From: a virus
Direction: 5' to 3' (one strand)
Virus record (IMG/VR): IMGVR_UViG_3300009158_000118
Span: 1 to 34,769 of that record
Length of the DNA: 34,769 nucleotides
In this document: positions 1-12,541 of the stretch, one piece after another
How the letters are laid out: the number at the start of each line of letters is the position of its first letter
How positions within the stretch are numbered: position 1 is the first letter of the stretch
Notes under the pieces: generated by a model
What the model saw: the letters and a program-made list of their open reading frames with translations, nothing else
The model's database searches: none
Told to the model about the DNA's origin: nothing
Program-made: the position numbers and the translations under genes

Positions 1-3000
1 ATAATAGATAGTGTAGCATTACTAACTGAATTAAACTACGTATCTTCTCAAATGCAGGAGTTATTTAAAGATTCTTTAGATACTGTTATTAGAGATAAGT
101 ATAAAGGTAAAGAGGCTGATGGTCAAGGTAAATGTACTTTTGACTTTTATAGAACAATGAGTATTCTTACTAGTCAGTGGTCTGATGAACAAGAAGTAGT
201 TTATAAAAAAATTGTAGACTATAATCATTATGATGAATTAGCTGATGAAGAAACTGATCCTACTAAAAAGACAGAGTACATACAACTAAGAGATGCTGTA
301 GGTTATGATCCTACAGAACCGGTATATTTTCCTCCAAAGAAATTTCAATATGCAGGACCTCAAAACTATAGTAGAATTATAGATGGTAAAGAATATGTTG
401 GTGCTCCTCCAATATTTGATAAATTTTCTTTACAACCTTTAATACCTACTATTATAAAAGGGACATCAGATGAACATCTTGCTAAAAGAATGGAATACAA
501 TGGTGTTGCCTATGTAAAGTTTGATAGTGGAACTAAAGTAGAATCACCTAGGATAAAAGATGATTTCTATGAAGACTTTGATCCTGAAAATCCTAATGAA
601 AGAAAAATTCGTCCTTTCCAACCAACTGATAAATTTAAATCTGAGCAGGAACTTTTCTTTAATAACTTTAAAGAGCAGGTAAGTATAGATGCTGAAATTC
701 ATGACCATGCTATATTTGGTTCTCAAATACGTAAGTTAATTCTTATGAATCTTGATAGACCTGAGTTTGAAGCAATGAAGAATAATTATATTAAATATCT
801 TGGTGAACTTGCTGAAATAGAAAAGGTTGCTGTTTATAGTGAAATGGGTATTACTAGAGAGAATGGTAAACTAAAAGTAAAAGACCTTGGTAAAATTGTA
901 GAGTATTTCTTTAAAGAAATTGCTAAAAAGAATCAAGATACTAATGTAAAGAAGGCTCTTAACTATGATGAAAAGACAGGTAAGTTTGATATTCCATTAG
1001 ATGCTGCTGTACAAGCTCAGGTTCTTGAAGGAATTATTATATCTTCTATCAATAATAGAGTGGTTAGATATAAGACCAATGGGTCCATGCTTGTTCAGAT
1101 GGCTGTGACCGGTTCTGAAAAAGTTAATAAGTTTAATAAAGAACAATCTAAGCAAGGCATAGAAACTTATGGTAATGATGATTTAGGGTATTACGAAATT
1201 GTCCCTAATAAAAATGGAGAGAGAGATGTCTCTGATAATCTAATCCCTACTGTTACTAAAATGGGAGTTAAGATAGCTCTTACTGGACAATGGCTTGGTC
1301 TTCTAAACCTTGATCATCCTGATAGATCTAAGATAGGAAGTATTGAACGTCTTAATGAAGCTCTTAAAGATGAGGATTGGGTGGCTCGTCATGAAAAGAA
1401 GATTACAATGACTGCTTATCGTATTCCTACACAGGGTAGAAACTTCTTAGATGTTATGAAAATACAACAATTCTTACCTGCTGCTGCCGGTGATGCAATT
1501 GTTATGCCTCGTGAAGTGGTAATTAAATCTGGATCTGATTTTGATATCGATAAAATGTTTGTATTCTATCCTAATCTTACAGAGAAAGGAAACTATCAAG
1601 ATACTGCTTATACACAAGCTGATTTACAAAATCCTGCAAAGTATAATGAGATTAAAGGTAGTATCCAAAACAAGTTATATGAAACAATGCAGGAGATTAT
1701 ACTACATCCTGCTAATTATATAGAATTAGTTACTCCTTCAGACAACTATCACATCATGCCTATCCTGGACAGTATTTTTGAAAAACTGGGATTAAAAACA
1801 GAAGGTGAAGACCGTAAGAAGACTGACTATAAAAACACTGAAATTCTTGAAAGAGAAAACAATATTAACAAGTTTCTTTCTTTATTAAAAGGTAAATCAG
1901 ATTTAGGAATAGCAGCTGTAGCTAATACATTTAATGTAATGTTCCAGCTTGCCAATGCTACAGCAAACCCTAATTTTTTTGGAGCTGAAGCTAATAAAGG
2001 AACGTCTATTAAAACATTCTTTAATTCTGATTTTGTTGAAAAGTCTATTGGTAGAATAGTAGGTATAGATTTCTCAAGCATTTTTGATGAAGATGGAGCT
2101 TTGAAATCAGAATTCTTTAGTGAGTTTATTAATGCCTTTGTGGATGTAGCTAATGATGACTATGTATTTGCTGCCAATGTTGTAACAGAATTGAGTCCTG
2201 TAATGTTCTACATGAAGTATGCAGGTATGTCTTCTAAGAAAATATTAAACTTTGTAAATCAACCGGCTATTAGGTTATATACAAAGAACCTGGCAATGTT
2301 TCAAAACAAGTTTGTTAAACTTAATGGTATAGGTGAAAACACTTCACCTAGAAAACTGGCTATGTCATTAACTTTAAGGGAGTTAGGATACTCTGATGGT
2401 AAAGATAGGCCGTGGAGTAGAAACACAATGGAAGAGTACTTAAGTAAGAATCAAGGAGGATTTGGTATATCAAACTTTGATCAGTTTTATACTGATGATA
2501 TGTTGTCTAAAGGTATAAGAAAAGATGAATTGGGAATTAATACATTGTCTGATAAAGGAAAATTAATTCAAGTATCAATGTTATTGGAATTAGAAAACTT
2601 AAGACTTCAATCTAATAGTGTCACAGAGGCTCAGAAGTTTTTAAACTTTGATACTAATCCTTTTTCAAGCACGTTTGACATATATTCTCGTGACAGAGAT
2701 TATGAAAATGCTTTAGAAGGAAGCAATATATTATCACCTACTACAATAGCTAATATTAAAGTAAATAGTATCATCAGTCCATTGGATATGTCAGATGATA
2801 TAAAATCTATTTTATCTAGTCTTTTCCCAGTACGTAATGATGACAAGTTTAATAAATTTATATTTGATAAAGCAAATGAGTTAAAAGATACGTATGATAA
2901 TAAGAGTATTATTTCTCAAGATGATGTATTAAGGTTTGCTAGAACAGCAAAGAATGACTACATGAATTTTATTCTACAAAACTTTATTGGTTCTTCTAAA

Positions 3001-5790
3001 GAAGGAATGGAGTTTTTTCATTCTACTTTCGAAACTAAAAAAGATTTTAATGATTATCTAGCTGAACTGGTGCAGACAAATAAATTACCTAGTTTGTTTC
3101 AAACTATAAAGTCACTACCTTATTATGAGGCTTTGGCTAAAAAGTATCCTGTAATTAGAAACATTGTAGTTCAACGTGGTGAAAAAAATAGGAATTTAGT
3201 CTCATTTAAAATTGTAGAAAACAGTTCTAATACCATTGAAAAAGAGAGTGTTATAAGACAATTCGAAGAATTATCTAATCTTTCGGATCCTGAATATAAA
3301 ATTGTAAGAACCTTCTTTAGAGATTTAGCTTTATATTCTATATTCCAATCAGGAATGAATACATCGGACATAAGTTTTACAAGTTCAACTCCTATTAGTA
3401 TAGTGAATAAACTATACGGGGATGCTGTTAAAGAGTATTCTAAAATTAGTGATGCTGAAAAAGATATTCAATTTACCAATTTTGATAAATTATTTGTAAG
3501 CAATAACCCAGGATTTTACAATGGTCGTTCTAATGCTACTCTAACACAAGAAGCAAGTAGTAGAGGTAAATGGTATTCTGATAATGTAAAAATAGGTTGG
3601 GAGACTAAAAAAGCAGAAGTTCCAAAACCTGTGATGACTCCTGTATCAAATAAAGCAGCAGTTAAGATAGTTGAAAATACTGCAGACACTAAAGCTGCAG
3701 CAAGACGTAATGAAGGAATATACTCTATGAGACCTAATCCCGGTGATCAAATACCTGGAGTAGATGAGAATTTTCATTTTGGTAATCCATGGTCACACAA
3801 CGGATATCAAGGAACTATTAAAACAGGATCTCTGTCTGAGGCAGAAGCTAAAGCTATTGGCACGTGGAAAGGGGATATTAAAGCTACTGCTGTTTCAGAA
3901 GCAGCTAGTAACTATGAGAGATGGCTTACTGGTGAATCTTTTCAAGATGTAGAACCAGAAAGACTAGCTTGGATTAGAAATGTTGTAGCTGCAGGAAGAC
4001 TAGATGGTAAAACATTTGTTTATTTCAAACCTGGTTATATAAGTCATGCTGATGTATTAGTTGATTATATTAATGGTAGAAACAAAACTTTACTATCTAC
4101 TAAGGTTGTAGTTGATGCTAAATCTCCGGGAATATCTGAAGTTAAAGTGTTTAAGTGGAACCGTCCTAATGCTGAACGTGGTACAGATGCTGATGTAGCT
4201 ATGAGAAAAGATGCTGATGGCTTTATAGGAGAAGTAAATGATCTTAGTGGTAAAACATCTTCAAATACCTCAGCTAATGAGCTACTTGAAAAAAATAAGA
4301 AAAAAACTCCAAAGGATGCACAAGGAACTGATATACCTTGGGAAATTCAAGTATCTCCTAATGGTAAAACAATAGGAGTAGCTGGAACAAAAGGAACCAT
4401 CATGTTAGCTAGAAATGGTTCATTAAAAGGAAACCCTTTAGAGGAAGCAACTAAACTAGCTATAAAATCTCTTAATAATTCAGGAGACTATACTTTTATT
4501 ATAGGTGATATGGAAGGTGTTGACACTCCATTCATGGAACTTTTAAATGAGATTGGTGCCACTTATAAAATATATGGCCACGGAAGAATAGTGGGTGTTT
4601 CTGATAAAGAACACACCAGAACCAAGCCGGCTAATATTGTTGTGTTAAAAGGAAAAGAAGGAGCTGCTGCATTCATAGAAGGCATAGGAGGTAAGAAAGT
4701 TTCTAAAGGTATACTTAATATAGAAGGTCAGTTCTATTATGTTCCATTAGGAACAGATGCCGGGCAGATGGATATTTTTCCTAAACCTAAAGGGGACGAT
4801 CTTTTCATGTATGATGCAGAGGGAAATGAAGTTTATATAGGATCAAGAACAAAAGGTTCTAAAATATTTATTGTTGATCCTGGTTTTAGATATGCTTTTG
4901 ATAAGGTTAGTAAAACTATACTGAATTATACTAGTGAAGACATAGATCTATTAGAAAGTCGTATGAATAAGTCTTCTACATCTAAGTTGGCAGCCCCTGC
5001 TAAACTATCTGGAAAAGGAGTTAAGATAATGTATGATGCTGATATAGCTGCTTATGCTGCATACTTGATTAAATCTAATGGAAAACCTGCTAAGGAATTC
5101 TTTACATCTGCTACGGCATTTAAAGAATTTTATAATCCTGGAACTGGTAAACGTGAAAAGGCTCCTCAATCTTCTAAATGGGTATTACAAGATAATGGTT
5201 TATATAATTTAGTAGACGATGAGACTGGGGAGTTATACATTGAAAGTGTAGACCTTAAAACAGGAATGAAGTATGAAGAGGAAGTTCAACCTAAAGACAT
5301 AGTGAATAGAGTTAATGAAATCACTTATACTCCTAAAGGTAAAGAGTCTCAGAAATATACAGTAGAGGGAACCAAGATTTTCAAAACTAAAGAAGGTACA
5401 GAAGTGTTCAAAGAAGATTCTGTCGATCGTAATAAAATCTTTGCTAACCTGGCTGTAAAACAGGGCAGGGCCGTAGTAGTAGACCACAAAGGAACAAACT
5501 ATGTGGTAAATGCTAAGAATGTGATTATCTCTGCTAAAACAGGAGCTATTATGAAATGGGGAGCTGATAATGGAAATACTAAAGCCATAGTAGCTTTAGC
5601 AAAAGAAAAGTTCCTTATGAAACAATCTAACCCTAAAACCGGATTAATAGATGCTATTAAAAATTGGATTGGTTCCCAGGAGATTGTGACTATTAAAGAC
5701 TCAGCTGAAAGCATAGCTGCTCAATATGAAACAAATAAATTATCTGGGGAATCAATTGAAGAATTCTTAAAAAGGTTATCTTGCAAATAA
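1..5790 (+). CDS. Giant phage RNA polymerase-like protein with DFDID signature, DUF4326-like and SLOG-like domains (5' partial)
   Basis: The frame is open to base 1, so the protein starts before the window; the first internal ATG is at 52 and numbering below counts from it. At 1537-1551 it encodes DFDID (D496, D498, D500). The stretch before it reads R-I-P-T, then an IQ-x-F-L-P element, D-A-I-V-M-P and finally DFDID. This parallels the bacterial beta-prime catalytic region (RxPT, IQxFxP, AIxxxP, NADFDGD), with the Gly of DFDGD replaced by Ile. That fits the single-chain, virion-packaged RNA polymerases of crAss-like phages, with the three Asp binding catalytic Mg. Around residues 1217-1345 a DUF4326-like domain is visible (FGNPW, YERWL, GKTFVYFKPG, then H-A-D-V-L), but without that family's Cys residues. 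Residues about 1434-1520 (TIGVAG, FIIGDMEGVD) resemble a Rossmann-like SLOG/YspA nucleotide-binding domain. TAA at 5788 is followed 20 bases later by the next giant gene. The RNAP call is fairly sure; the accessory domains less so. Confidence 0.82.
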   Translation: MIDSVALLTELNYVSSQMQELFKDSLDTVIRDKYKGKEADGQGKCTFDFYRTMSILTSQWSDEQEVVYKKIVDYNHYDELADEETDPTKKTEYIQLRDAVGYDPTEPVYFPPKKFQYAGPQNYSRIIDGKEYVGAPPIFDKFSLQPLIPTIIKGTSDEHLAKRMEYNGVAYVKFDSGTKVESPRIKDDFYEDFDPENPNERKIRPFQPTDKFKSEQELFFNNFKEQVSIDAEIHDHAIFGSQIRKLILMNLDRPEFEAMKNNYIKYLGELAEIEKVAVYSEMGITRENGKLKVKDLGKIVEYFFKEIAKKNQDTNVKKALNYDEKTGKFDIPLDAAVQAQVLEGIIISSINNRVVRYKTNGSMLVQMAVTGSEKVNKFNKEQSKQGIETYGNDDLGYYEIVPNKNGERDVSDNLIPTVTKMGVKIALTGQWLGLLNLDHPDRSKIGSIERLNEALKDEDWVARHEKKITMTAYRIPTQGRNFLDVMKIQQFLPAAAGDAIVMPREVVIKSGSDFDIDKMFVFYPNLTEKGNYQDTAYTQADLQNPAKYNEIKGSIQNKLYETMQEIILHPANYIELVTPSDNYHIMPILDSIFEKLGLKTEGEDRKKTDYKNTEILERENNINKFLSLLKGKSDLGIAAVANTFNVMFQLANATANPNFFGAEANKGTSIKTFFNSDFVEKSIGRIVGIDFSSIFDEDGALKSEFFSEFINAFVDVANDDYVFAANVVTELSPVMFYMKYAGMSSKKILNFVNQPAIRLYTKNLAMFQNKFVKLNGIGENTSPRKLAMSLTLRELGYSDGKDRPWSRNTMEEYLSKNQGGFGISNFDQFYTDDMLSKGIRKDELGINTLSDKGKLIQVSMLLELENLRLQSNSVTEAQKFLNFDTNPFSSTFDIYSRDRDYENALEGSNILSPTTIANIKVNSIISPLDMSDDIKSILSSLFPVRNDDKFNKFIFDKANELKDTYDNKSIISQDDVLRFARTAKNDYMNFILQNFIGSSKEGMEFFHSTFETKKDFNDYLAELVQTNKLPSLFQTIKSLPYYEALAKKYPVIRNIVVQRGEKNRNLVSFKIVENSSNTIEKESVIRQFEELSNLSDPEYKIVRTFFRDLALYSIFQSGMNTSDISFTSSTPISIVNKLYGDAVKEYSKISDAEKDIQFTNFDKLFVSNNPGFYNGRSNATLTQEASSRGKWYSDNVKIGWETKKAEVPKPVMTPVSNKAAVKIVENTADTKAAARRNEGIYSMRPNPGDQIPGVDENFHFGNPWSHNGYQGTIKTGSLSEAEAKAIGTWKGDIKATAVSEAASNYERWLTGESFQDVEPERLAWIRNVVAAGRLDGKTFVYFKPGYISHADVLVDYINGRNKTLLSTKVVVDAKSPGISEVKVFKWNRPNAERGTDADVAMRKDADGFIGEVNDLSGKTSSNTSANELLEKNKKKTPKDAQGTDIPWEIQVSPNGKTIGVAGTKGTIMLARNGSLKGNPLEEATKLAIKSLNNSGDYTFIIGDMEGVDTPFMELLNEIGATYKIYGHGRIVGVSDKEHTRTKPANIVVLKGKEGAAAFIEGIGGKKVSKGILNIEGQFYYVPLGTDAGQMDIFPKPKGDDLFMYDAEGNEVYIGSRTKGSKIFIVDPGFRYAFDKVSKTILNYTSEDIDLLESRMNKSSTSKLAAPAKLSGKGVKIMYDADIAAYAAYLIKSNGKPAKEFFTSATAFKEFYNPGTGKREKAPQSSKWVLQDNGLYNLVDDETGELYIESVDLKTGMKYEEEVQPKDIVNRVNEITYTPKGKESQKYTVEGTKIFKTKEGTEVFKEDSVDRNKIFANLAVKQGRAVVVDHKGTNYVVNAKNVIISAKTGAIMKWGADNGNTKAIVALAKEKFLMKQSNPKTGLIDAIKNWIGSQEIVTIKDSAESIAAQYETNKLSGESIEEFLKRLSCK

Positions 5791-5810: not shown

Positions 5811-8597
5811 ATGGTAGTTTGTCCTAATAAATCAAGTAAAGAATGGCAGTCATTAGCTAAAGATCTAGGTGAAGATAGAGCTATGCTTGCTTTTATACGT
5901 AATAATGGTGTTGTTCCTAGTACATCTAAAGCTCGTGAATTGATTACTAACAAAGGAGTTTTACAATCTCTTCAGGTTCTTCCTAGACTTTCTGAAAGTA
6001 GTATACTTCAAACACTAAGGACTAACAACTTGATTGTTGGTGAAGGATTTAAACAAGGTGATAGAACATTTTACCAGCTTAATGGAAATGTAACTAATAT
6101 TGGAGATAAGCTTGGTGAATTTACAAGCACTTATGGAACTGTACTAGAGTACAAAGGAGATTATGTAACCATTGATGAAAATTCATTAGCTGCTTGGAAT
6201 AGTATTTCTAGTGCTCAACAACTTCAAAATAAATCTTTAACTGAACTATCTAAAGACTTTTTAAAAAGTATTGGAGTAAGTTTAGTGGAGCAAGATGATG
6301 TTATTAAAAAATATGGATCTAATGGTATAGCTGACTTTGCAGAAAGAATGATAAGAATTCAATCCGGTATGACAGATGAAGTTCTTCCTGAAGAAGCTTT
6401 ACACTTTTTCCTGGATATGTTACCACAGGATCATCCTGCTTTACTAGAATCTTTAGATAAAATACGTAACACTCAAACTTACAAAACTACATTTGAGAAG
6501 TACAAGAATAATCCTAACTATCGTGTTGATGGAGTAATTAATATCACTAAGATTAAAAAAGAAGCATTGGCTAAAGAATTAGCTGCTCAAATGAAAAAAG
6601 AAGAGAAAGCTGGCTGGGCTGAAAACTTACTTAACATTATACTAGACTGGATTAAAAAAACATTTATTAAAAAAGGACCAAATGATATTCTTAGAGATTT
6701 ATACTTTAGTGGGGACATTAGTACGTTAAATACTAACCTTCAGTCTTCTGAAATATACAACCAGCTTACTGATGAAAATAAGGCATACTATGAGGCTCAA
6801 CTTACTAATGAAGCTCAGAGGCAAACATTAGAAAAGATTCTTGCTTATATTCTTCCTACTAGTTTTGATGGTAAAGGACATAAATATACTTATGCCGGCA
6901 ATCCAGAAGGTGCCCTTGTAAAATCTGTTACAACAGTTATAGGTTCAGAATTCTTTTCTGAAGTTGAAAATCCTGATGTAATGCTAGAAGTGGCAAATGC
7001 TTTTGTTCATGAAATTCCATTAGCAACATTTAATGCTGACGATAGTGAAAACGTAAAAGGTAAAAAGATAATCAACTTTATAGTTGAAGAAATATTAAAC
7101 GGCAATAGAACTCCTGAAGAAATGGAGAAAATTGTTGGAACAAAAATCAGTGATTTACTATTTAAAGCATCTGAAGCTAAAGCTAAAACTTTATTTGGTA
7201 CAGCTATTCATAGTATTGCTGAGGCTGTTATTCTTGGAAAAAAGATAAACCTTGATGTTATAGATCCAAAAGATCCTTCTAAAGGTGGTATAGATCCTAT
7301 TGTATATAAGTTGATGGATAGAGCTAGTCTTGAGACACTACTTGCAGGTACAGCTACGGAGGAAGGCCTTATTCAAACTATCAGAAACTTAGTTAAAACT
7401 AATCATGTTGTAATGAGTGAGGTTGCCATAAGTAATGGTAAACTTGGAGGGGTATTAGATATCATAGCAATTGATGATCAGGGTGTGGCTCACATCTATG
7501 ATTTTAAAACAAAATTTATTAAAAATTTTGGTAGTAAATCATTTATCAAAGAAGGTTTAATTGATGAATTTCACAATACAATAAATGCAAAAAGTCCAAT
7601 TGGTGTTAAAAATGAACCAGATACTTTAAAAGAACTTAGAGGTGTGCCTAGAAGTAATAGACAAAAATACAGTCAACAGTTATCCATTTACAAAAAGATG
7701 TTAATGGAGGCTGGTATTCCTGTAGGAAGTATTAACATTATTGGGATACCTTACAGACTTGATGCTGATAATAAAGTATCAGATATTAAAGTCAGTATAG
7801 TTAAAAATATTGAGTTTAATAAATCACTTGCTAACTATTACTTTCCTGGGCTGGATGCTGGCCTGGATGCTACTGTTAAAAAAGCTGTCGAGTCTAAAGA
7901 AGATCCTAGATTAGATACCATCAGGTCTGTAGAAAATAATAAACTTAAAGAAGCCTTTGCTAAATCACTAAGTAGACTTACTCAAATATACAGAGCTTTT
8001 GATAAAAACAAAAGTAAAGAAGAGTTATATAAACTTTTATTAAATGAAGGTAGTAAAGCAAACAAAGTACAACTTCAAAAAAGTGTAGTGGAAGCTACCT
8101 TAGATAACTTTGCTCATGCTGAGGAAATAGGTAACTTTTTAGAAATTCAAAAAAACTTTTTAGAATTAATTGATTCATCTGCTCCTATTATAAGAACAGC
8201 TGTTGAGCATTTTAATAATTTAAAGAAATCTACTCCTACAAACTCTGAAGGTGTATCCTTAAAATTAGCTGAACTTTTAAAAGTTAAAAATTTCTTGTCC
8301 GGTTATCAAAATATGTTTGAAGAATTATTAGACTATTTTCCTGATGCTAATCAAGATAACCTTGTAAAAAAGAAATTAACTGATCTTATTGGTGTCACCT
8401 CTGGAGTAAAAAGTGAGTATATTAAAGTGATTAGTCCTGATATTGTAAACATGTTAGGTGATGTATTTAATAAAGATCTACTAGATAATATTAGACGTGA
8501 GTATAGTGAGTTAATTGCTGCAGCTAATGCTCGTGGGGATGTAGAAAGAGCTAAAGAATTAAAAACTGAAAGAGATGACTTGCTTCACAAAAAGTAA
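5811..8597 (+). CDS. Giant virion-type protein, N-terminal part, with PD-(D/E)XK nuclease domain
   Basis: This 928-residue product follows the RNA polymerase-like gene; its ATG has an A-rich leader. The N-terminus (about residues 1-50, with an S-x-E-W-x-x-L element and a stretch rich in acidic residues and helix formers) resembles, from memory, the starts of other giant Bacteroidetes phage proteins. A PD-(D/E)XK nuclease domain lies in the middle: helix motif GTAIHSIAE with H467, then D550 in a GGVLDII strand and D564-F-K566 in the next strand, the usual D...(D/E)xK layout of RecB/Cas4-like nucleases. The C-terminal third (about 640-928) is charged and helical. The frame stops at TAA 8595-8597 in a charged segment (HKK), and the -1 frame continues with the same character into the 8705-12541 reading frame. 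I therefore read this as the N-terminal part of an about 2,243-residue protein, joined by frameshifting or broken by a sequence error. The role of the nuclease is unknown; host DNA degradation or genome processing are possibilities. Confidence 0.78.
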   Translation: MVVCPNKSSKEWQSLAKDLGEDRAMLAFIRNNGVVPSTSKARELITNKGVLQSLQVLPRLSESSILQTLRTNNLIVGEGFKQGDRTFYQLNGNVTNIGDKLGEFTSTYGTVLEYKGDYVTIDENSLAAWNSISSAQQLQNKSLTELSKDFLKSIGVSLVEQDDVIKKYGSNGIADFAERMIRIQSGMTDEVLPEEALHFFLDMLPQDHPALLESLDKIRNTQTYKTTFEKYKNNPNYRVDGVINITKIKKEALAKELAAQMKKEEKAGWAENLLNIILDWIKKTFIKKGPNDILRDLYFSGDISTLNTNLQSSEIYNQLTDENKAYYEAQLTNEAQRQTLEKILAYILPTSFDGKGHKYTYAGNPEGALVKSVTTVIGSEFFSEVENPDVMLEVANAFVHEIPLATFNADDSENVKGKKIINFIVEEILNGNRTPEEMEKIVGTKISDLLFKASEAKAKTLFGTAIHSIAEAVILGKKINLDVIDPKDPSKGGIDPIVYKLMDRASLETLLAGTATEEGLIQTIRNLVKTNHVVMSEVAISNGKLGGVLDIIAIDDQGVAHIYDFKTKFIKNFGSKSFIKEGLIDEFHNTINAKSPIGVKNEPDTLKELRGVPRSNRQKYSQQLSIYKKMLMEAGIPVGSINIIGIPYRLDADNKVSDIKVSIVKNIEFNKSLANYYFPGLDAGLDATVKKAVESKEDPRLDTIRSVENNKLKEAFAKSLSRLTQIYRAFDKNKSKEELYKLLLNEGSKANKVQLQKSVVEATLDNFAHAEEIGNFLEIQKNFLELIDSSAPIIRTAVEHFNNLKKSTPTNSEGVSLKLAELLKVKNFLSGYQNMFEELLDYFPDANQDNLVKKKLTDLIGVTSGVKSEYIKVISPDIVNMLGDVFNKDLLDNIRREYSELIAAANARGDVERAKELKTERDDLLHKK
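8586..8597 (+). other. Candidate -1 frameshift site between two giant reading frames
   Basis: The zero frame reads CAC AAA AAG TAA, so a five-A run followed by G sits directly before the stop. Re-pairing one base back puts A-site tRNA-Lys on AAA and the next codon becomes GTA at 8594, which opens the frame that runs without a stop to 12541. That frame is closed upstream (TGA at 8576), so the two frames overlap only from about 8579 to 8597, exactly around this site. Between 8594 and the first ATG at 8705 lie 37 codons of ordinary coding character with no ATG, GTG or TTG. A perfect palindrome CTTTTAAAAG follows at 8606-8615, but I see no strong stem-loop or pseudoknot at the usual distance. A one-base error in the A run would give the same picture. 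Confidence 0.6.
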
Positions 8598-8704: not shown

Positions 8705-11700
8705 ATGAAAGCTACTCTTGACCAAGTGAGACTTGATAATAAGAAATTTAGAGATGGTTTTTCTAAAGAACTTGATAAGAGATTTAAAATATACGGAAGA
8801 GGCAATGTTGATGTTAAAGCTTTTAACCAATCTCTTACAGACATAGTTGAAGAGTTTGATCCTAATGGAGAATATAACTCTGTTACAAAAATTAGAAGTG
8901 AAAAAACTCGTCATGTAATGTATTTTAAAAGTGAGTTTAGTGAAAAACTTTACAATGATTATAATAGATTAAAATTTGCTTTTAAGCAAGCTGAAGATTC
9001 CAAAGATAAGGATGCTATGAGTATAGCTAAAAAAGCTATTAAAGAATTTGAAAACAAATTTTTTCAAACAGGATACACTGATGAGTATTATAAACTAACT
9101 GCCCCATTAGAAACAAAAGTTCGTTATCAAGGAAAGGACATGACTGTTAGAGAAATTGAAGGTCAAATCCGGGATGAGATTAATAAACTTGAACGTCTAT
9201 ATAGTAATGATGACATAGAAACTGGAGCATTTGATAAAGCTCATTTGACTGAACTTCAAAAACTTCATGAAAGAAGAGCTGAGTTAAGGGATGTATTAGA
9301 TTCTAAAGGCAATCCTAAAAGTGGAGAGGAACTAAAGATAGCTAATGCTTTAAATGAATATGATAAAAATAAGTCAAAGCTGTACACAACAGAAGAACAA
9401 ACTGAATATTTTAATCGTGTTAATGAGAAAGCTAAACTTGACATGGGTGAAGATAGTGAAGAGTATAAAAAATGGTTTACTGATAATACTCGTACAGTTG
9501 TTAAAGATGAATATTTTAAAGAGTTATCACGTCTTTATGATGAAAAAGGTAAAATAGTTGGTAGTGTAGGTATGTCTGATGAAATTAATGTATTGTATAC
9601 CAAACTTAGGCAATTAACTAAAGCTTATAAAGATAAAGATGGTACTGTTAGAGGAGCTATGCTTAGTGATGAGGCAGCTGATAAAATTAAAAAAATTCAA
9701 GATCAAATAGTTGAATTGTCTTTAGATATGGAAGATAGTCTACTTAATGGTTATACTAAACAAGAAAAAGATAGACTTAAAACATTATGGTATCTTAAAA
9801 ATAATGGTCTTCCTTATGATGAGATGGAGATGAATGAAATTAGAGAATCTGGTAAAGCAAGATTACAAGCTAGAATAATTGCAGATCCTCTTCTTGGTGA
9901 AAAGATTGATAAACTTAAAGAAATTAATGAGCAAATATGGGGCATGAGTAAAAAAGAAAATACTCCGTATTATGAAAAAGAACTAGAAGATCAAATGCAG
10001 TTATTTGCAACAGCTAATAATATTACTCTTGACCAATTGAAAGAAGAAGGAGTATGGATGGAGCAGTTTAAAGATAGTGATTGGTTTATTAATAATCATA
10101 TCATTAGTAGAAAAGTTTTGTATGAAGATGAGGAGACTGGAGAAAAAAGAATTGATAGAACAGAAATTCCTACATATCAGTGGAGAAGAAATATGCCAGT
10201 TGAAAAGTATATTGAAAGAAAACCAGGAAAACAGTTTTCAAGAACCGTACTTAAAGAATCATATACTGATGAAAAGGGTAATGAAATAATGTTGCAAGAT
10301 CTTGATAACTTAGATGTTCAAAGAAGATTTAAACCTAAAACGAATGAACAATATCGTAAGTTAAATGGTACAGATCATCCCTACTTGAACAAAGAGTTTT
10401 ATAATTTAAAAATTAAAAACGAAAATGGTAGTGCATCTGCAAAAGAGAAAGTTGACTATGAGAATTTACTCTATATCCATGATCAAATGCTTAAGTCTCA
10501 AGAAAATATTGAGCCGTCACAACGTATTGGATTAGCTGTTCCATTCTTAGAGAAAGAATTATTTGAAAGAACTGTTGAATCTAAAGGCACCAATATTAAA
10601 GAAAAGATAGGTGGGAAACTATCAAGTATTTGGGAAGCTATTAAACGTATGTTTAAACGTACAGCTCAGGATGTTGATCAAGAAGGTATTCCTACAACTG
10701 AAGAAAGTAGTAGAAATGATATATCTAAATTGGCAACAATGGATAATTCACAGATTAAATTTATACCAGTAAGATTTAGTACAAAAGGTGAAGCTGAAAA
10801 TGCTAGTTATGATGTATGGGGAGGAGTTTTAAATTATGTAGGATCTATTACTAGAAAAGCTGCACTTGACAAAGAGCTTGCTTTTGTTAATGGTATAGAA
10901 GAAATATTATCTGGTAAAGAGAATCAACCTAAGTCAGAAAGTAGAAACTTAATTTTAAATAATATTTACAAAAAGTACCTGGGCCCAGAGTATGAAGCAA
11001 AAATAAATAAAGGTGGTAATACACGTTTAGAAGTATTAAAAAGCTTTATTAATTCTGTAATGTATAATGAAACTTCTTTTGAAGGATTTGATGTATTAGG
11101 AGTGAACTCTCAAAAGGCCATGAATAATGTTATGGCTTTAAGTAGCTTTACTATTCTTGGAGCTGCTCCTCTTAACTGGGCTACTAACTGGATAAGTGGT
11201 AACGTTCAAAACTTTGTAGAAGCTGCAGGTGGAAAAATCTATAACATAAAAGATTTTAATTCAGCAAATACAGACATCTATACCGGAGGTAAATATGGTT
11301 CTCCTATTAAAGACATGCAAGAAGACTACACTAAAGTAGGTAATAGATCTTTCTGGGGTCAAATTATAGAAGTATGGGATCCTATGCAAGGTGAATTTGA
11401 AAATGAATTTGGTCATAAAACTAACTTTAATGTTGCCAAAAACATATTTAAACAAGGACTTTATGCTGGTAAAATATGGGGTGAGTGGGAAATTCAAATG
11501 AAATCATTTATAGCATTTATGAAAAATCATAAGCTATATGATGGAGAAATAGTTGATAGAGAAACATTTATAACAAAAAAGATTGGTACTGATTTAGATG
11601 GTATGTCACCCTCTCAAATTAGTAAACTAAGACTTGAGGCTTTAAAAGAATTTGAAGCATTAGATGTTAATCTTCTTGACATGATGGAATTAAATAAAGA

Positions 11701-12541
11701 AGGAACCCTTGCTATTAAAGATAAGTATAAAGAGTCTTTTCAGTTTGGTAGTGGTCAATTTAGTGACATAGTTGCTAAACTTCATGCACTGCAGAAAAAA
11801 CTGAATGGTTCATATAACCAGTTTGATAAAGCTTATGCTGAGAAAACATCTATTGGTAAAATGATGTTCTTTTTTAGAAAGTATTTTCTTCCAATAGGTA
11901 TTAATCGTTGGGGAGTTCGTAGAGTTAATTATGAGTCTATGAATATAGAACAAGGATTCTATCTTACGTTTATACAAACAATGGGTAAAGACCTTGCTAA
12001 GTTTAGATTTAAAGTTATAGCTGATTGGAGTAAATACTCACCTGATGAAAAAATAGCTATTAAAAAAACATTGACTGATATGGGAATAGTATTAGGTATA
12101 TGGCTTGCTTATAGTGTTCTTTTAGGATATGATCCTGATGACAAGGACAGATTTAAAAAGCTTAAAGAAAAAGGATGGGCTGCTCAGGCTGCTGTTTTCC
12201 TTCTTTTAAAAGTTAGATCTGAAACTGAACAGTTTCTTCCTTATGCCGGTTTAAATGAGATTAAAGGTGTGTACAGTAATCCATCTTTAGTATTTAATGA
12301 GACCACTCGTTATATGAATTTAACAAAATTAATTGGTGAACACATGTTGAATGTTCTTCCTGGAGTAGATTTTAATCATGATCTTTATTATAGTAAAGAT
12401 GTTGATCAAAGTGGATTGAAAGATAAGGGAGATTCAAAATTAATTTCAGCTGCTGTAAAATCAATAATTGGGTATAGTGGAAGAACAGTACATCCTGATG
12501 ATGCAATCAAGTCCTTTGAATATATGCAGAGAATGAAATAA
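8705..12541 (+). CDS. Giant virion-type protein, C-terminal part (probable continuation of the preceding frame)
   Basis: From its first ATG the frame encodes 1,278 residues, but it is already open from 8579, and the extra codons look coding (WFFSKL, then PDIVLAGVAKKM). Translation from 8594 by a -1 shift would add 37 residues to the front. The first roughly 600 residues are highly charged, Glu/Lys rich and probably coiled coil. The C-terminal half contains hydrophobic stretches near residues 795-825 (MALSSFTILGAAPLNWATNW) and 1122-1140 (GIVLGIWLAYSVLLGY), possibly membrane-interacting. I recognise no enzyme domain. Large proteins with hydrophobic segments beside a virion RNA polymerase would fit internal proteins ejected with the DNA, but that is inference. 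The gene ends at TAA 12539-12541, directly on a terminator hairpin. Confidence 0.72.
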   Translation: MKATLDQVRLDNKKFRDGFSKELDKRFKIYGRGNVDVKAFNQSLTDIVEEFDPNGEYNSVTKIRSEKTRHVMYFKSEFSEKLYNDYNRLKFAFKQAEDSKDKDAMSIAKKAIKEFENKFFQTGYTDEYYKLTAPLETKVRYQGKDMTVREIEGQIRDEINKLERLYSNDDIETGAFDKAHLTELQKLHERRAELRDVLDSKGNPKSGEELKIANALNEYDKNKSKLYTTEEQTEYFNRVNEKAKLDMGEDSEEYKKWFTDNTRTVVKDEYFKELSRLYDEKGKIVGSVGMSDEINVLYTKLRQLTKAYKDKDGTVRGAMLSDEAADKIKKIQDQIVELSLDMEDSLLNGYTKQEKDRLKTLWYLKNNGLPYDEMEMNEIRESGKARLQARIIADPLLGEKIDKLKEINEQIWGMSKKENTPYYEKELEDQMQLFATANNITLDQLKEEGVWMEQFKDSDWFINNHIISRKVLYEDEETGEKRIDRTEIPTYQWRRNMPVEKYIERKPGKQFSRTVLKESYTDEKGNEIMLQDLDNLDVQRRFKPKTNEQYRKLNGTDHPYLNKEFYNLKIKNENGSASAKEKVDYENLLYIHDQMLKSQENIEPSQRIGLAVPFLEKELFERTVESKGTNIKEKIGGKLSSIWEAIKRMFKRTAQDVDQEGIPTTEESSRNDISKLATMDNSQIKFIPVRFSTKGEAENASYDVWGGVLNYVGSITRKAALDKELAFVNGIEEILSGKENQPKSESRNLILNNIYKKYLGPEYEAKINKGGNTRLEVLKSFINSVMYNETSFEGFDVLGVNSQKAMNNVMALSSFTILGAAPLNWATNWISGNVQNFVEAAGGKIYNIKDFNSANTDIYTGGKYGSPIKDMQEDYTKVGNRSFWGQIIEVWDPMQGEFENEFGHKTNFNVAKNIFKQGLYAGKIWGEWEIQMKSFIAFMKNHKLYDGEIVDRETFITKKIGTDLDGMSPSQISKLRLEALKEFEALDVNLLDMMELNKEGTLAIKDKYKESFQFGSGQFSDIVAKLHALQKKLNGSYNQFDKAYAEKTSIGKMMFFFRKYFLPIGINRWGVRRVNYESMNIEQGFYLTFIQTMGKDLAKFRFKVIADWSKYSPDEKIAIKKTLTDMGIVLGIWLAYSVLLGYDPDDKDRFKKLKEKGWAAQAAVFLLLKVRSETEQFLPYAGLNEIKGVYSNPSLVFNETTRYMNLTKLIGEHMLNVLPGVDFNHDLYYSKDVDQSGLKDKGDSKLISAAVKSIIGYSGRTVHPDDAIKSFEYMQRMK

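Follow-up and report, generated by a model that had tools for sequence, protein, structure and literature searches.

The polymerase open reading frame

The window, i.e. the whole stretch of DNA analysed, is a linear IMG/VR virus fragment of 34.8 kb that begins within a large open reading frame (ORF; positions 1-5790, plus strand). The contig edge truncates the 5' end of this ORF and leaves 1929 aa readable. The initial annotation numbered the protein from an ATG at position 52, but residue 1 of the window aligns with residues 863-983 of close relatives, whose ORFs are 2258-3082 aa long, and this ATG is therefore internal. Residue numbers given here follow the open frame and equal the ATG-based numbers plus 17.

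The polymerase active centre first suspected from the catalytic context is real: phmmer aligns the ORF with the solved phi14:2 polymerase (PDB 6vr4) at E 3e-23, with KSGSDFDIDKMFVFYPN aligned over KTGSDFDIDKMYVMLPN, and the segment GSDFDIDKM is identical in the window ORF and phi14:2 gp66. By this homology the ORF encodes a crAss-like phage's virion RNA polymerase (vRNAP), which is already known, as is its DFDID motif. Homology to 6vr4, together with PMC7886860, suggests two double-psi beta-barrels in a single chain. A direct search of Pfam, NCBIfam and PHROGs with the whole ORF gave no significant match. The opposite strand encodes DNA polymerase, primase, DnaB, Sak4, exonuclease and helicase, which fits a crass-like replication block. 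The phi14:2 homologue is reportedly carried inside the virion, where crAss001 homologues are also reported to be packaged, and reportedly acts on early genes.

The DFDID motif (positions 1537-1551, plus strand; residues 513-517) had been taken for a deviation from DFDGD. It is instead the family norm, found in 77 of about 95 distinct members, with DFDVD in seven, DYDID in five and DFDGD in only three; as solved phi14:2 gp66 also carries it, novelty of the motif is ruled out. Sequences next to the motif vary in length among relatives. The ORF of the closest relative, L005, has an insertion of about 180 aa directly after it (residues 1504-1686), and about 120 aa are inserted directly before it in L016, L017 and L021.

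Phi14:2 gp66 resembles the window protein in its homologous core, its GSDFDIDKM segment, its position in the gene order, the giant cargo ORF that follows and the cysteines that face both neighbours. It differs in having neither of the two C-terminal modules described below.

The DUF4326-like domain

A DUF4326-like domain devoid of cysteine lies at positions 3694-4086 (plus strand; about residues 1232-1362), with HFGNPW at residue 1259 and SHADVL at 1348. The window's own domain has no Pfam match. In a family built from relatives, however, 18 of 30 members match PF14216 at E <= 1 (best 4.9e-4), although no giant-ORF domain in the records searched exceeds 25 bits, the curated PF14216 cut-off. 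Profile-profile comparison (hhalign) with 69 viral canonical DUF4326 sequences gave a probability of 97.3%, E 1.8e-11 and a score of 63.3; 200 column shuffles used as a control had a mean score of 10.8 and a maximum of 21.0. The domain is thus a genuine relative of DUF4326, as had been proposed. A search with its model by Foldseek and VIA-align yielded no noteworthy match.

Homology with PF14216 extends along the whole domain and includes the GNPF motif and the final His. What the cargo-embedded family lacks is all three cysteines of CxC...CH. Canonical sequences have CxC in 67 and CH in 68 of the 69 cases, whereas none of 40 embedded members has any Cys in the domain segment; the canonical CWCxPxxCHG has become YYKxLGxxSHA. 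Both forms can occur together: the L113 genome encodes the embedded Cys-less form plus a stand-alone DUF4326 gene that retains its Cys. This canonical gene (positions 1465-1842 of L218, from the same genome) is followed by a YspA-type gene (1943-2335). In two other relatives, L111 and L112, a stretch of about 80 aa (IVDRxNPNKIYxFGDNTQRxGTGGQA) is nested within the DUF4326-like domain and interrupts it.

The SLOG-like module

Downstream is a SLOG-like Rossmann module (positions 4183-4635, plus strand; about residues 1395-1545) that is putatively circularly permuted. The characteristic SLOG motif blocks looked for were GxR/RN, GGxxGxD and then GxxRNxxM...AD. Judged by eye, the block order is swapped relative to YspA, with GDxKDxAMRxxADxxI coming first, followed by IMLARNG and VVGDMPGVD; in the window these are represented by TDADVAMR (residue 1395), IMLARNG (1467) and GDMEGVD (1502). 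The Rossmann character of this region had been predicted, and the AlphaFold (AF2) model agrees: strands and helices alternate in an alpha/beta core with pLDDT >90. The start originally assigned was too late, because the motifs are taken to be circularly permuted, and is moved here to about residue 1395.

When compared with a family of YspA/YAcAr sequences taken from viral contigs, the profile scores 30.1 in permuted and 24.5 in native order. The maximum from 200 shuffled double profiles was 25.4, and shuffling the first half alone never gave more than 24.7, so the first half contributes real signal at the permuted position. The module has no match to a Pfam SLOG model, and the permuted alignment found none among Pfam and PDB sequences. 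Foldseek and VIA-align with the predicted model returned weak Rossmann-type matches (Z <5), with no SLOG chain among the matches listed. The module has a predicted Rossmann-type fold and apparently both motif blocks in common with the YspA/YAcAr members of the SLOG superfamily (PF10686), and departs from them in its apparent block order and in lacking a Pfam SLOG match. It is taken here, from its sequence, as a circularly permuted, SLOG-like module rather than a confirmed SLOG member. The permuted module is also present in ORFs of 460-480 aa and of about 1900 aa without an RNA polymerase (L131, L141, L155 and similar), and these have no significant Pfam or PHROG identity.

Distribution and possible role of the accessory modules

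The fusion of an RNA polymerase with these two modules, noted initially in the window, recurs in environmental relatives, within their vRNAP polyproteins. The giant vRNAP ORFs of these crass-like phages show the arrangements RNAP-DUF, DUF-RNAP, RNAP-SLOG and SLOG-RNAP, and all three units are combined in four orders (window and L005; L057; L082; L167). Both modules are missing from the 15 named phages searched, all but one of which are Crassvirales by record, and a tblastn search of named phages with both module sequences gave no match. The fusion of a Cys-less DUF4326-like domain and a permuted SLOG-like module to a polymerase is a new variant.

Other domains also appear in these proteins. 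NADAR is found inside the giant ORFs of L053 (G018), L118 (G031) and L160 (G038), at E 3e-15, 3e-10 and 3e-4, respectively, and the L118 ORF carries the SLOG-like module as well. The C-termini of the close relatives L004, L006 and L007 are different and unrelated, and those of L004 and L006 contain a stretch that looks ASCH-like by eye (RTRTTR...), without a Pfam match. DprA (PF02481) was considered as the origin of 'DprA-like' annotations in named crassviruses and rejected, as it gave one weak, sub-cut-off match, in cr272_1.

What might the modules do? Their distribution fits modular accessory domains, which are probably injected. In this they recall the polyvalent phage proteins, which are large, multidomain, thought to be co-injected with DNA and equipped with swapped accessory domains; SLOG and NADAR are not mentioned, and coupling cysteines not described, in the accessible text of that survey (PMC5512222). 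As accessory parts of an injected polymerase, the modules most likely serve to bind nucleotides or ligands of the ADP-ribose type when the polymerase enters the cell, an assignment made with lower confidence.

The more specific proposal, that they sense or process host signal nucleotides (NAD, ADP-ribose) on entry, is plausible but has somewhat less than an even chance of being right. Crassvirus vRNAPs repeatedly occur with both modules, in several arrangements, relatives carry NADAR in giant ORFs, and one relative has its canonical DUF4326 gene beside a YspA-type gene. Moreover, DUF4326, SLOG, NADAR and Macro domains are paired in phage ADP-ribose systems, with published fusions of DUF4326 to the other three (PMC9503650, PMC7824862). 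On the other hand, CxC...CH is lost from every one of the 40 embedded DUF4326-like members, and the modules are absent from the named phages searched. This role is compatible with the disulfide-joined cargo discussed below. Alternatively, the modules could be degenerate passengers that provide nothing but bulk or spacing in a cargo protein that evolves rapidly, and the unrelated C-termini that L004, L006 and L007 have in their place could be so read; as distant members retain invariant motifs, this is considered unlikely.

Cysteines of the cargo proteins

The loss of Cys is not peculiar to the DUF4326-like domain, because cysteine is excluded from the whole cargo protein. Cys content is 0.067% in 67 non-redundant vRNAP ORFs, compared with 1.18% in ORFs of 150-700 aa from the same loci. 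The few cysteines are not scattered: 56 of the 67 ORFs have Cys among the last five residues, and none has one at -9 to -40.

In the window, the polymerase ORF has Cys at residue 45, which lies well inside the full-length protein, and at -2. The latter codon (positions 5782-5784, plus strand; LSCK-stop) is the proposed coupling cysteine. The next cargo ORF (5811-8597, plus strand), gp65-like with respect to phi14:2 by its position, represents the N-terminal part of a protein whose remainder lies in another frame (8705-12541, plus strand). Its sole Cys is residue 4 (MVVCPNK; codon at 5820-5822, plus strand), the proposed partner cysteine, and the remainder has none. The frame change at 8597/8705 splits this protein into 928 and 1278 aa, and L005 has a single ORF of 2224 aa. 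No Cys pair is present at the split, as expected where there is no real protein end.

How general is this pattern? From RNAP loci, 101 non-redundant junctions between consecutive ORFs of at least 350 aa were collected, and the last six residues upstream and the first ten downstream were scored; start codons were picked by closeness to the upstream stop, irrespective of Cys. Cys is found on both sides at 82 junctions, on neither at 14, downstream only at five and upstream only at none. Four of the five downstream-only cases have an upstream Cys at -7 or -8. The Fisher p of 2e-13 for pairing is to be taken as indicative, since the sequences are related. Other co-directional gene pairs in the same loci have Cys on both sides in 0 of 164 cases. 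The 14 junctions without a pair mostly involve small upstream structural genes, frameshift splits and unrelated ORFs, and include apparent false splits, e.g. that in L013, which is an intact single ORF in its relative L015, and 8597/8705 in the window. Genomes translated with table 11 include recoded stops.

C-terminal ends have Cys in 84 of 89 cases when they face another cargo ORF, as against four of 21 when they are free. A C-terminal tag belonging to each protein is disfavoured, because free ends mostly lack Cys and the partner Cys is on downstream N-terminal ends. Some very long vRNAP ORFs (L035, L039, L048 and L054) share a common EEKIKFL-like, Cys-less tail and may come last in their chain or make it up alone.

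Named crassviruses and gene fusions

In ten named crassviruses both cysteines are present at 12 of 12 junctions. In phi14:2 all cysteines of the three giant cargo proteins lie at ends that face a junction (the last residue of gp67, residues 3 and -2 of gp66 and residue 3 of gp65), and the replication enzymes of the same phage contain about 0.8-2.2% Cys. The junctions of cr272, cr130, cr50 and cr271 also conform to the terminal pair. Cys-poor bodies are not universal, as p-crAssphage gp44 has eight Cys, cr271 gp48 has 15 and cr272 gp23 has 39.

Fused genes are of particular interest. In p-crAssphage and cr3_1, the equivalents of gp66 and gp65 are fused, and the pair is present solely between 67 and 66; in cr118 and cr109, 67 and 66 are fused, and it is present solely before 65. 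The cargo order 67-66-65 in phi14:2 numbering corresponds to 47-50-49 in crAss001, where the gp47 gene is on the opposite strand from gp50 and convergent to gp50-gp49. Gp47 nevertheless has its sole Cys at residue 2339 of 2341; gp50 has Cys at 5, 1334 and 2404 of 2412, and gp49 has its sole Cys at 5. As gp47 carries a terminal Cys without its gene being adjacent, gene adjacency is unnecessary and the feature belongs to the proteins. The crAss001 proteins thus resemble those of the window as virion cargo with the terminal Cys pattern and differ in the convergent arrangement of the gp47 gene (PMC10172136). As a fact of sequence, the rule of terminal cysteines at cargo junctions, with the pair missing at fused boundaries, is strong.

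A disulfide-coupled cargo chain?

Because the Cys pair is located where a peptide bond is missing, and faces C-to-N in the order of the fused proteins, a disulfide is its simplest reading. It is considered probable, if well short of assured, that crassviruses couple separately encoded giant cargo proteins C-to-N by disulfide and thread them as one reducible covalent train, fission and fusion of the genes being freely interchanged. In such a scheme the giant cargo proteins, the vRNAP among them, would exit the capsid via the narrow tail. The facing cysteines would form a disulfide in the virion, and separate cargo proteins would then act as a single polypeptide, pulled through the tail N-to-C and freed once the disulfide is reduced in the cytoplasm of the host. 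In phages with fused cargo genes, a peptide bond would replace the disulfide, hence the absence of a pair. Bodies free of Cys would be spared incorrect disulfides as they unfold and pass through the tail. The same rule would apply to accessory domains, and this would account for the loss of CxC...CH in the embedded DUF4326-like family and its retention by the stand-alone DUF4326 of a related genome.

Several properties of crAss001 are relevant here. Gp47, gp49 and gp50 were found in virions by mass spectrometry, ejection is thought to require partial unfolding through constrictions of <50 angstroms, and the tail has intermolecular disulfides (PMC10172136). In a term search of that paper, cysteine did not come up, and disulfides came up solely for proteins of the capsid vertex and the tail. 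As to thiol chemistry, p-crAssphage gp37 and gp39 and crAss001 Gp5 are annotated as thioredoxins or ferredoxin-thioredoxin reductase, and a link to the cargo is possible.

Against a disulfide chain are the 14 of 101 junctions without a pair and the four of 21 free C-terminal ends with Cys. In addition, a disulfide in a strictly anaerobic gut host requires an oxidant or post-lysis oxidation. Phage N4 (L321) provides a useful comparison. Its ejected gp50, gp51 and gp52 are entirely devoid of Cys; N4 vRNAP, gp51 and gp52 are thus giant ejected cargo without internal cysteine, as in crassviruses, and unlike these have no terminal Cys. The N4 vRNAP is an unrelated polymerase of the single-subunit type. 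Avoidance of Cys alone is therefore not specific to coupling and may be a trait shared more widely among ejected proteins.

Could the terminal cysteines instead bind a metal, or a docking partner common to both proteins, and so keep consecutive cargo proteins or polymerase subunits associated without a covalent bond, either during packaging or in a holoenzyme? The same paired pattern would be predicted, and both gp66 and gp65 are virion proteins related to RNA polymerase. However, each side has a single Cys at a variable distance from the end (-1 to -8 on the upstream protein, residues 2 to 7 on the downstream one), and no conserved His or Asp is seen next to it, unlike a metal site; moreover, the pair is lost where the proteins are fused. 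Perhaps one chance in five may be given to such binding. Although most junctions are consecutive and tightly spaced, it is highly improbable that the Cys codons merely reflect some DNA or RNA element located there (ribosome binding, transcript processing, or an intron or intein remnant). A DNA-level cause is rejected because of the crAss001 gene order, in which gp47 and gp50 both have terminal Cys on opposite strands, and because of the out-of-frame control, in which TGY codons are rare (6% per frame in the 67 vRNAP ORFs); TGT and TGC are both used.

Significance

The paired terminal cysteines are unlike any system known to us. No report of cysteine or disulfide coupling of cargo was found in the open-access literature, and as far as that search reached the pairs are unreported.

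How so much folded protein leaves in an ordered way via a narrow phage tail is an open question (PMC10172136, PMC12633501). If coupling by disulfide is correct, reducible covalent linkage would partly answer it for crassviruses, which rank among the most abundant groups of viruses in the human gut. Their free splitting and fusing of cargo genes would also be accounted for, as would the DUF4326 domain without Cys. The terminal cysteine rule, which matters most if the disulfide is confirmed, could predict from sequence which phage proteins travel together.
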